A stretch of DNA of 59,944 nucleotides, taken from assembly GCA_009380005.1 (NCBI GenBank), contig WHSQ01000011.1:1-59944 (forward strand), given 5' to 3'. The stretch comes from Actinomycetota bacterium (GTDB lineage Bacteria > Actinomycetota > CADDZG01 > WHSQ01). A program made the position numbers and the translations under genes. The notes beneath the pieces were generated by a model. It was not told the origin of the DNA. It saw only the letters and a program-made list of their open reading frames with translations, and searched no databases. Shown piece after piece: positions 32,629 through 36,315 of the stretch (the first letter of the stretch is position 1; each line of letters starts with the position of its first letter).

Positions 32629-32758
32629 GTCTTGATCTAAGCAGACCCCATCGCCTTCCCGCTCGCGGTATCGCAGCCACGGGGACCGGCATCGCTCGGT
32701 GAGACGCCTCGTTCCGAGGGGGCTCGAAGTTTCCCGCCGACCTGGCAAGATGCAGCCC

Positions 32759-34093
32759 ATGACACGGCTGTTCGGCACCGACGGGGTCCGAGGCGTAGCC
32801 AACCAGGACCTCACCCCCGACCTCGCCCTGGCGCTGGGACGCGCCGCCGGCGAGGTGCTCGCACCCAACGGTGAAGGGGTCGTGGTGGGCCGCGACACGA
32901 GGATCTCGGGGCCGATGCTCGAGGGAGCGCTCGCCGCGGGCCTTTCGTCGGCGGGGGCCGGCGTCCGTCTCGCCGGCGTGATCCCCACACCCGCCGTCGC
33001 GTTCCTCACGATCCACGAGGGAGCGGCGGCCGGAGCGATGATCTCCGCTTCGCACAACCCCGTTCCCGACAACGGGATCAAGTTCTTCTCGCCCGACGGC
33101 ATGAAACTATCGGAGGGACTCGAGGATCGGATCGAGGCTGCGATGGAACGGGGGCCGTCCGAGCTCCCGACCGGCCTCTACGTCGGCGCGACGGAGTGGA
33201 TCGAAGAAGCACACGATCGCTACGTCGGTCATCTCCTCGCAACGTTGCCCGAGCGCCTGATCGGCTTGCGCATCGTCCTCGACTGCGCGTTCGGCTCGGC
33301 CTGGAAGGTGGGTCCAAGGGCCTTCCGAGAGGCGGGAGCGGACGTCGTCGCGATCAACGCGGAGCCGGATGGGGCCCGGATCAACGTCGACTGCGGCTCG
33401 ACTTCTCTGGACGGGCTCGCGAAGCGAGTGCTCGAAGAGGGAGCGGATCTCGGGCTGGGTTTCGACGGCGACGCGGACAGGGTCCTGGCAGTGGACGAGC
33501 GGGGAGCGGTCCTCGACGGCGATCGGATCCTGACGGTGCTTGCGCAGGGTCTCCACGAGGCCGGTCAGCTCAAGGAGGACGTCGTGGTCGCCACCGTCAT
33601 GTCGAACCTCGGATTCCTGCGGGCGATGCGCGATCGGGGCATCGACGTCGTAACCGCGCCGGTGGGAGACAAGTACGTCGTCGAGGAGATGGTCGCTCGG
33701 GGAGCGGTCCTCGGCGGCGAGCAGTCGGGTCACGTGATCCTGGCGGAGCACTCGTCCACCGGGGACGGGATCCTCACCGGGCTCCAGCTGGCGGCGTTCC
33801 TGGTCGCGTCCGACCGCCCTCTCTCGGAGATCTCGCGCGGGTGGCAGACCTTCCCCCAGGTCCTCGTCAATGTGCCGGTCGAAGGCCGGGTCCAGCTCGA
33901 GGGCGCCGAGCCGCTGTGGGCCGAGGTCAGGGCCGTGGAGGCCGAGTTGGGCGATGACGGCCGGGTGCTCCTGCGGGCGTCGGGAACCGAGCCGGTCGTG
34001 AGGGTGATGGTCGAGGCCGAGAGCGAGGGCCGGGCCCGGGCCGCCGCCGAACGCCTGGCCGGGGCCGTCGCCGTCCACCTGGATAAGCCCTGA
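32759..34093 (+). CDS. glmM: Phosphoglucosamine mutase
   Basis: Interconverts glucosamine-6-P and glucosamine-1-P for UDP-GlcNAc and cell wall synthesis. 444 residues, with MTRLFGTDGVRG at the start, the phosphoserine loop ISASHNPVPDNG (Ser98), the metal loop GFDGDADR, and the C-terminal phosphate-binding RASGTEPVVRVMVEA. The ATG at 32759 is chosen; 20 codons upstream remain open but are not conserved. It directly precedes glmS, its pathway partner. Confidence 0.96.
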   Translation: MTRLFGTDGVRGVANQDLTPDLALALGRAAGEVLAPNGEGVVVGRDTRISGPMLEGALAAGLSSAGAGVRLAGVIPTPAVAFLTIHEGAAAGAMISASHNPVPDNGIKFFSPDGMKLSEGLEDRIEAAMERGPSELPTGLYVGATEWIEEAHDRYVGHLLATLPERLIGLRIVLDCAFGSAWKVGPRAFREAGADVVAINAEPDGARINVDCGSTSLDGLAKRVLEEGADLGLGFDGDADRVLAVDERGAVLDGDRILTVLAQGLHEAGQLKEDVVVATVMSNLGFLRAMRDRGIDVVTAPVGDKYVVEEMVARGAVLGGEQSGHVILAEHSSTGDGILTGLQLAAFLVASDRPLSEISRGWQTFPQVLVNVPVEGRVQLEGAEPLWAEVRAVEAELGDDGRVLLRASGTEPVVRVMVEAESEGRARAAAERLAGAVAVHLDKP

Positions 34094-34176: not shown

Positions 34177-34207
34177 TTGACCCGGCGAGGGCCATCGTGG
34201 CTATCCT
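34177..34207 (+). promoter_or_regulatory. Promoter of the glmS transcript
   Basis: TTGACC (34177-34182) and TATCCT (34202-34207) are 19 bp apart, immediately upstream of the glmS ribozyme. Confidence 0.55.
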
Positions 34208-34235
34208 TTTAGCCCCCGAGAGGGAAGCACGCAGG

Positions 34236-34402
34236 ATCGGATCTAGCGCCAGGGCTCGCTGGAGGAGCGAGTCGACGAGGTAGGGGATCTCGGAAGGGCC
34301 CGGCAGCACGCCGGCCCGACTCGGCGGGTGACCCTCGGCCGGCCACGGTCGTGACGGTGCCGACAAACCCCGGGAGCGATCCCGGGTCACAAACCGGCAT
34401 CG
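34236..34402 (+). ncRNA. glmS ribozyme
   Basis: Self-cleaving RNA that uses glucosamine-6-phosphate as cofactor. The cleavage core AGCGCC begins at 34245, with cleavage expected between A34245 and G34246. P1 is CTCGCT (34255-34260) with AGCGAG (34266-34271); GACGAGG is at 34274-34280; AGGG (34282-34285) pairs with CCCT (34332-34335); a GC-rich hairpin fills 34296-34317; GGCGG is at 34323-34327; GGTGCCG (34356-34362) pairs with CGGCATC (34395-34401) around ACAAACC, the hairpin CCCGGG/CCCGGG and CACAAA. Order and loops match the known family. It lies about 80 nt before glmS. Confidence 0.92.
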
Positions 34403-34479
34403 AGGTGGCCTCTCGGAGGAGCAAGGCGTGGCCTATCGCGCCCCATCGCCGGGCGCGCCGAAGAGAGAGGGGGCGAACC

Positions 34480-36315
34480 ATGTGCGGCATCGTCGGTTAC
34501 GTCGGCGGAGACGACGCCCTCCCCGTCCTGTTGGATGGGATGAGGAAGCTCGAGTACCGCGGTTACGACTCCGCCGGCGTCGCGCTGGTGAAGGACGGCC
34601 GGGTCGAGCTCGCGAAGAAGGCAGGTCACCTGTCCGAGCTCGAAGGTGAGCTCCAACACCTCACTCTGGACGGCAGCCTGGGGATCGGCCATACCCGCTG
34701 GGCGACGCACGGCGCTCCCAACGACATCAACGCTCATCCCCACCTGGACTGTGGCGGGAGGTTGGCGGTCGTACACAACGGGATCATCGAGAATCACGAC
34801 GGCATCAGGGACGAACTCGTCGCGGCCGGTCACGCGTTCCGATCGGAGACGGATACGGAGGTCGCAGCTCACCTGATCGAGTCGATCCTCGAACGCGACG
34901 GATGCTCCTTGCTGGAAGCGGTTCGGCGATCGATCTCGGTCCTCCAGGGCGCGTTCGCGCTCGTCGTCATCTCCGTGGACGAGCCGGATCGCCTCATCGT
35001 GGCGCGCCAGGAATCGCCGGTCATCATCGGCGTCTCCGAGGAAGTGGGCCTCGTCGCGTCGGGCATCCCGGCGCTCCTTCCTTTCACGCGCGACATCGTC
35101 CCGCTGGAGAACGGTCAGATCGCTCAGATCACGCCCGGCGGCTACGAGGTCTTCGATCTGAAGGGCGCCGCTGTCGAGCCTCCGGTGGTCCACGTCGAAT
35201 GGGACATGGAGGCGGCCGAGAAGGGCGGCTACGAAGACTTCATGTTGAAGGAGATCTTCGAGCAGCCCGAGGTGGTGCAGAACACGATCCTCGGGCGTGT
35301 CGATCCGAGCGGTCGTATCGTCCTCGACGACGTCCACTGGTCGGCCGACACGCTTGGCAAGATCAACAAGATCGTGGTCGTCGCGTGCGGTACCTCGTAT
35401 CACGCCGGCATGGCCTCCAAGCACGCGATCGAGCATTGGACGCGGCTCCCCGTCGAACTCGATCTGGCATCCGAGTTCCGGTACCGGGATCCCGTCCTCG
35501 ATGAGCACTCGCTGGTCATCGGCATCGCTCAGTCGGGAGAAACCGCAGACACTCTGGCCGCCGTCCGGTTCGCGAAGGAGATGGGTTCTCCGGTCGTGGC
35601 CGTAACCAACGTCGTCGGCTCGTCGATCACTCGAGATGCCGATGCCGTTCTGTTCACTCATGCGGGGCCCGAGATCGGGGTCGCCGCCACGAAGACCTTC
35701 CTGGCGCAGCTCGTGGCTTTGAACCTGTTGTCGCTGTACCTCGCACAGGAGCGCGGCTCGATGGAGCCGGAGAAGATCGCCGAAACGATCGTGGCCATGA
35801 ACCGCCTTCCGGATCAGGTGGAAGAGGTCCTCTCGATCCAGGGTGAGGTTCACCGAGCGGCCAAACGCTACGCCGATGCCAAGGACTTCATCTTCATGGG
35901 TCGGGGCGTCGGATACGCGGTGGCGATGGAGGGTGCTCTCAAGCTCAAGGAGATCTCTTACATCCACGCCGAGGGCTACGCGGCCGGCGAGCTCAAGCAC
36001 GGCGCCATCGCCCTCATCGAGGAAGGCGTCCCGGTCGTGGCGCTGCTGACGGGCCGGGCCCTCTACGACAAGATGCTCGCCAACGTGGAGGAGGTCCGGG
36101 CGCGGGGAGCTCAGACGATCGTCCTGGCGCACCAGGGCGACGAGCGCGCTCGACTTCTGGCCAACGAGCTCTTCGAGATCCCGGAGACGAAGCCCCTGTT
36201 GTCGCCGATCCTGGACTCCGTGCCTCTGCAGCTCTTCGCCTATTTCGTTGCGAAGGAACGCGGCCTGTCCCCGGACAAGCCCCGAAACCTCGCCAAGAGC
36301 GTCACGGTCGAATAG
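34480..36315 (+). CDS. glmS: Glutamine-fructose-6-phosphate aminotransferase
   Basis: Makes glucosamine-6-phosphate from fructose-6-P and glutamine. 611 residues; the frame is open from 34351 but the ATG at 34480 gives MCGIVGYVGG, whose Cys2 is the glutaminase nucleophile after Met removal. RWATHGAPND lies in the amidase domain; two SIS isomerase domains follow (VACGTSYHAGMASKHAIEHW, IAQSGETADT) and the end is LAKSVTVE. GAGAGAGGGGG precedes the start. Regulated by the ribozyme upstream. Confidence 0.97.
   Translation: MCGIVGYVGGDDALPVLLDGMRKLEYRGYDSAGVALVKDGRVELAKKAGHLSELEGELQHLTLDGSLGIGHTRWATHGAPNDINAHPHLDCGGRLAVVHNGIIENHDGIRDELVAAGHAFRSETDTEVAAHLIESILERDGCSLLEAVRRSISVLQGAFALVVISVDEPDRLIVARQESPVIIGVSEEVGLVASGIPALLPFTRDIVPLENGQIAQITPGGYEVFDLKGAAVEPPVVHVEWDMEAAEKGGYEDFMLKEIFEQPEVVQNTILGRVDPSGRIVLDDVHWSADTLGKINKIVVVACGTSYHAGMASKHAIEHWTRLPVELDLASEFRYRDPVLDEHSLVIGIAQSGETADTLAAVRFAKEMGSPVVAVTNVVGSSITRDADAVLFTHAGPEIGVAATKTFLAQLVALNLLSLYLAQERGSMEPEKIAETIVAMNRLPDQVEEVLSIQGEVHRAAKRYADAKDFIFMGRGVGYAVAMEGALKLKEISYIHAEGYAAGELKHGAIALIEEGVPVVALLTGRALYDKMLANVEEVRARGAQTIVLAHQGDERARLLANELFEIPETKPLLSPILDSVPLQLFAYFVAKERGLSPDKPRNLAKSVTVE

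Follow-up and report, generated by a model that had tools for sequence, protein, structure and literature searches.

A predicted GC-rich glmS ribozyme with an inserted hairpin and a plausible leader–flank helix in Actinomycetota

We analyzed a 59,944-nucleotide stretch of an Actinomycetota bacterium genome (GCA_009380005.1, contig WHSQ01000011.1; hereafter "the window"), in which two genes of the same pathway lie in succession on the + strand. The upstream gene, glmM, encodes phosphoglucosamine mutase (32756–34093; TIGR01455, 560 bits), and is followed by glmS, encoding a 611-amino acid glucosamine-6-phosphate synthase (34480–36315; TIGR01135, 812 bits, full length). A first-pass annotation of the sequence had proposed a glmS ribozyme between the two genes, in an actinobacterial background. 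This background was borne out by six WhiB matches in the genome (among 14 control genomes, this family had matches only in Corynebacterium glutamicum) and by the grouping of GlmS with Actinomycetota. A cmscan search yielded a match to the glmS ribozyme family RF00234 at 34234–34412 (+), which scored 61.5 bits (gathering threshold, 37) and covered model positions 1–167 of 167. The covariance-model check suggested at first pass thus excludes a chance match, with E-values of 7e-13 in 4.5 kb and 9.3e-12 over the whole window. No Rfam family other than RF00234 was matched in the window, and the match was the single one to this model in the 3.8 Mb genome. All elements that the first-pass annotation had named were found in place when the sequence was re-read. 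With the glmS ATG (34480) about 78 nt past position 34402, the ribozyme lies in the 5′ leader of glmS.

The leader is bordered by several smaller features. An own promoter for the ribozyme, as initially proposed, is weakly supported: a consensus scan found no sigma-70-type promoter before the ribozyme, and the one pointer to it is a TATCCT block (34202–34207, +), a candidate −10 element common to most members of the window's family at the same place. Downstream of the ribozyme, the glmS start is preceded by a purine-rich Shine-Dalgarno (SD) region, GAAGAGAGAGGGGG (34460–34473, +). The interval between ribozyme and SD region (34418–34459) is a GC-rich, hairpin-forming, GCGCGC-like stretch, and a GC-rich, hairpin-forming stretch of variable sequence was present at the same place in nearly all members of the window's family f1 (the window and 13 relatives).

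Using helix definitions and the importance of individual ribozyme parts from published work (PMC11602151, PMC7125110), we identified both the double-pseudoknot core, with 4, 3, and 4 pairs in P2, P2.1, and P2.2, and the peripheral domain, including P3.1, the purines of the P4 internal loop, and the GNRA tetraloop. Conservation was evaluated in an alignment of 18 sequences from four families. The self-cleavage site predicted from the known family lies between A34245 (A-1) and G34246 (G1) on the + strand, within an AGCGCC core (34245–34250) that was invariant across the cut in 18/18 rows. The CGCC portion of this core (34247–34250) is the 5′ strand of P2.2 and pairs with GGCG (34323–34326), with 4/4 pairs formed and invariant in all 18 sequences. 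It is followed by the P1 hairpin (34253–34273), in which 34253–34259 pair with 34267–34273, extended by T34260–A34266 and closed by a GGAGG loop; the CTCGCT/AGCGAG motif sits within its strands (34253–34260/34266–34273), 97.6% of cells were paired, and both sides changed at 5/7 pairs. The core strand GACGAGG (34274–34280) was invariant across the alignment. P2.1, formed by C34276–A34278 with T34290–G34292, was paired in 92.6% of cells, the unpaired cells belonging to two rows of another actinobacterial family (f13) that are apparently misaligned there. For P2, in which AGGG (34282–34285) pairs with CCCT (34332–34335), all cells (100%) were paired. The remaining core strand, CTCGGCGGGTG (34320–34330), contains GGCGG and comprises the 3′ strand of P2.2 and the core that follows; within it, TCGGCGGGTG was invariant in 18/18 sequences.

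The peripheral helices were similarly complete. P3 (34336–34351; CGGCC at 34336–34340 with GGTCG at 34347–34351) was paired in 100% of cells, and its loop GGCCAC (34341–34346) pairs with GTGGCC (34405–34410), the 3′ strand of the P3.1 pseudoknot. P3.1 is absent from the Rfam model, yet it covaries, with 88.7% of cells paired and both-side changes at 4/6 pairs (C-G to U-A in three sequences). In P4 (34356–34401), GGTGCCG (34356–34362) pairs with CGGCATC (34395–34401) in 90.5% of cells and encloses the ACAAA/ACAAA internal loop (ACAAACC at 34363–34369, CACAAA at 34388–34393). The outer 7-bp helix of P4 (34369–34375/34380–34386), paired in 99.2% of cells and changed on both sides at 7/7 pairs, is capped by a GCGA tetraloop of the GNRA type (34376–34379). 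Across the alignment, 95.9% of 772 cells were paired, and both-side changes occurred at 23/43 pairs compared to a shuffle mean of 6.4, with 0/500 shuffles reaching as high a value. When the partner strand was slid by 1–3 columns, pairing fell to 32–43%. P2 covaried at all four of its pairs, while P2.1 and P2.2 hardly vary and thus provide no covariation evidence either way.

The identity initially proposed for this element is backed by its sequence and structure, by covariation and conservation, and by its gene context, and no evidence against it was found in this analysis. We consider it very likely (probability of about 0.93) that the leader element is a GlcN6P-activated glmS ribozyme, placed before the organism's only canonical glmS. 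Judged from its sequence, it genuinely belongs to an already known class of ribozymes, to which it adds a new, in kind ordinary, member. As in the known family, accumulating GlcN6P would bind the preformed ribozyme core as a cofactor, the RNA would undergo self-cleavage at the A34245–G34246 bond, and the resulting 5′-hydroxyl mRNA would be degraded or poorly translated, leading to less GlmS. In B. subtilis, RNase J1 breaks down the RNA downstream of the cut (PMC11780869; PMC7125110), and the genome analyzed here includes an RNase J-family gene (533 bits, cut-off 400). We infer ligand, cleavage, mRNA decay, and lowered glmS expression by analogy with these characterized systems.

Compared to the RF00234 types of B. 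subtilis, B. anthracis, and T. tengcongensis, the window's ribozyme shares the core strands AGCGCC, GACGAGG, and CGGCGG, the position before glmS, and the helices P1, P2, P2.1, P2.2, P3, P3.1, and P4, including the ACAAA/ACAAA loop and the GNRA tetraloop. It differs from these types in its GC content (72%) and in a 22-nt inserted hairpin, GGGCCcGGC-AGCAC-GCCGGCCC (34296–34317, +), in the P2.1/P2.2 loop, which in the Bacillota examples considered here is only a few nucleotides long. A complementarity between leader and flank (P0, see below) is particular to family f1. The insertion was recognized by comparing the spacing between GACGAGG and CGGCGG, which is 41 nt in the window and 34–72 nt in 12/14 members of f1, as opposed to 19–20 nt in named Bacillota/Atribacterota ribozymes and in nearly all f13 ribozymes; the spacings read for loci L030 and L010 are artifacts of pattern matching. 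The f1 inserts differ in sequence between genera, and the longer ones fold as hairpins. Since the last residue of the P2.1/P2.2 loop touches the base of the P1 helix in known structures (PMC7125110), the inserted hairpin could possibly affect the cleavage rate. Outside of f1, ribozymes from the actinobacterial families f13, f20, and f30 display the same fold and precede the same gene as in the window. Six f20 loci (L002, L006, L024, L038, L173, and L176) have spacings of 31–54 nt and, by eye, a hairpin-like insert of their own at the same place, apparently acquired separately from the f1 inserts.

Upstream of the cut, a leader element CCGAGAGG (34216–34223, +) is the perfect complement of CCTCTCGG (34409–34416, +), which lies at the ribozyme's 3′ margin. 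The resulting helix, P0, would comprise eight pairs in the window, two of which overlap P3.1 (C34409–C34410). The same 3′ segment is a possible anti-Shine-Dalgarno, as 34409–34414 are complementary to GAGAGG (34465–34470) in the SD region of glmS. All 14 f1 members carry the leader GAGAGG core (once as GAGAGA), a CU-rich block complementary to it directly after P3.1, and an SD region complementary to this CU block. None of the f13, f20, or f30 ribozymes display the GAGAGG/CCTCTC leader–flank pair. The leader element was also considered as the SD sequence of a leader peptide, and this candidate was rejected, as the leaders read through showed no suitably spaced ATG after the element.

To evaluate P0, we compared complementary runs between leader and flank with those obtained from shuffled leaders. 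In f1, the observed runs exceeded the shuffled ones (combined p 1.6e-8, from sequences that are related and not independent), with no such excess in f13 (0.29) or in named Bacillota/Atribacterota ribozymes (0.37). Own leader–flank pairs extended beyond swapped ones at p 0.003 across 14 sequences and p 0.06 with one sequence per genus, values that are somewhat favorable because the register was set by eye. An earlier and blunter permutation test on long segments gave p 0.06–0.09. Within one genus, a compensated change was observed, i.e., GAGAGA/TCTCTC versus GAGAGG/CCTCTC. These pairing patterns make a P0 helix plausible in the f1 family.

What such a helix might do can be read in two ways. P0 may be real but purely structural, closing the ribozyme, speeding its folding, or retaining the 5′ product, with no role in translational control. 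This reading draws on all of the leader–flank pairing evidence above, and P0 is predicted at 0.97–1.0 in the window and several relatives. It leaves the complementarity between CU block and SD region in nearly all relatives unexplained, although any CU-rich block would pair with a purine-rich SD region. We regard a structural P0 as a tentative possibility, somewhat short of an even chance.

Alternatively, the active ribozyme may also act as a translational platform, in which the cut itself stops translation ahead of mRNA decay: the leader GAGAGG of the uncut RNA would hold CCUCUC in P0 and keep the SD free, and cutting would release CCUCUC to cover the SD. Such an arrangement would resemble SD-sequestering translational riboswitches, in that the CU block is able to mask the SD and faces a competing strand further upstream, but the proposed switch would be self-cleavage instead of a change of fold. 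The presence of leader GAGAGG, CU-rich flank, and complementary SD region in 14/14 f1 members, the restriction of the excess in complementary runs to f1, the advantage of own over swapped pairs, and the compensated change would all fit this scheme, as would the folding of isolated flanks, in which the SD sits on the CU segment at a probability of 0.56–1.0 in 13/14 f1 members. In the window, however, this probability is only 0.08–0.12, and P0 competes with P3.1 for C34409–C34410. Modeled SD accessibility was also almost unchanged between uncut and cut RNA (mean 0.28 to 0.23) in an equilibrium model that is crude, as a hairpin stands in for the ribozyme, and P0 prevails in no more than roughly every second species. 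Finally, own and swapped pairs of flank and SD did not differ significantly (p 0.24–0.26). Taken together, we consider direct translational control by the cut unlikely. If the leader–flank pairing did work as proposed, this would be a natural ribozyme coupling self-cutting directly to ribosome access, which to our knowledge has been achieved in engineered switches only.

We then evaluated the distribution of the predicted glmS ribozyme. Within f1, it was detected in 14/14 genomes with an assembled glmS start (the window and 13 others). Two f1 genomes, 68% and 81% complete, gave no match, and in both glmS is truncated by a contig end. Comparing glmS leaders in related genomes, as suggested at first pass, thus revealed a core that is kept in close relatives. 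Across the phylum, 74/396 sampled Actinomycetota genomes carry the ribozyme, and a glmS start was found downstream of it in 48 loci fetched from f1 and the phylum sample. The range extension put forward in the first-pass annotation therefore stands as far as GC-rich Actinomycetota do carry the ribozyme, but the window's locus is one of many, the element being common in several lineages. Sampled Streptomyces, Mycobacterium, and other Actinomycetes were without it. If these elements act as predicted, control of amino-sugar supply by RNA self-cleavage would be widespread in several deep actinobacterial lineages, beyond low-GC Gram-positives.

In the window's class (24 genomes), 16/16 genomes with an assembled canonical glmS start carry the ribozyme. 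Six class genomes without the ribozyme (f3 genera g15 and g18, f2 genus g17; loci L150–L155 in G023, G022, G020, G017, G018, and G021) are also without a canonical GlmS. The nearest GlmS relative in these six is encoded by an ORF of ~1140–1165 residues (truncated in one genome where the contig stops), is ~30% identical, and combines GATase_6 and SIS domains; the one tested scored 213 bits against TIGR01135, under the cut-off of 418. No Rfam element above threshold was found near these divergent genes. We infer from sequence that this ~1140-residue protein may serve as a working GlmS. Within this class, the ribozyme strictly accompanies canonical GlmS.

The glmS ribozyme is best known from Bacillota, which could speak for a recent horizontal import of ribozyme and glmS together from that phylum. 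In a quick GlmS tree, f1 formed one clade (support 99), which f2 and f3 joined (85), and these three families grouped with f13 and Actinomycetes on the actinobacterial side (88, open), apart from Bacillota. With GlmS placed among actinobacterial sequences, the tree gives no sign of a recent transfer from Bacillota; the window is also 66% GC throughout, and we consider such an import highly improbable. The ribozyme core pattern was not found upstream of glmS in the Actinomycetes of the tree. The simplest reading, which we hold with moderate confidence based on these sequences, is that the ribozyme was anciently present in Actinomycetota and lost in Actinomycetes.

The score of the window's ribozyme (61.5 bits) is lower than that of other actinobacterial glmS ribozymes (up to 115 bits), probably due to the inserted hairpin, the GC-rich helices, and a short L1. 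This score, below that of most relatives in the phylum, could suggest a degenerate and inactive relic retained as a plain leader structure, but this is scarcely credible given that core strands are all invariant across f1 whereas loops and inserted hairpin vary freely, and that helices are maintained by covariation.

Beyond a predicted ribozyme of ordinary kind, three features of this survey are worth a second look: the inserted hairpin and P0 of f1, and a distinct gene arrangement in family f26. In f26, which includes AT-rich genomes of 1.0–1.4 Mb from the same phylum, an RF00234 match of 50–62 bits precedes glnA, and glmS comes next, in the same orientation as glnA. These arrangements were observed at loci L177 (G186:C40:19300-22300), L178, and L179, with ribozymes at G186:C40:19536-19778, G054:C124:4129-4371, and G077:C30:11573-11805. 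The f26 cores are variant, with AGCGCA or AGCGAA for AGCGCC, CAGCGG for CGGCGG, and, in one case, TACGAGG for GACGAGG. The f26 glnA encodes a type I glutamine synthetase (523–524 bits), and one f26 ribozyme may govern both glnA and glmS.
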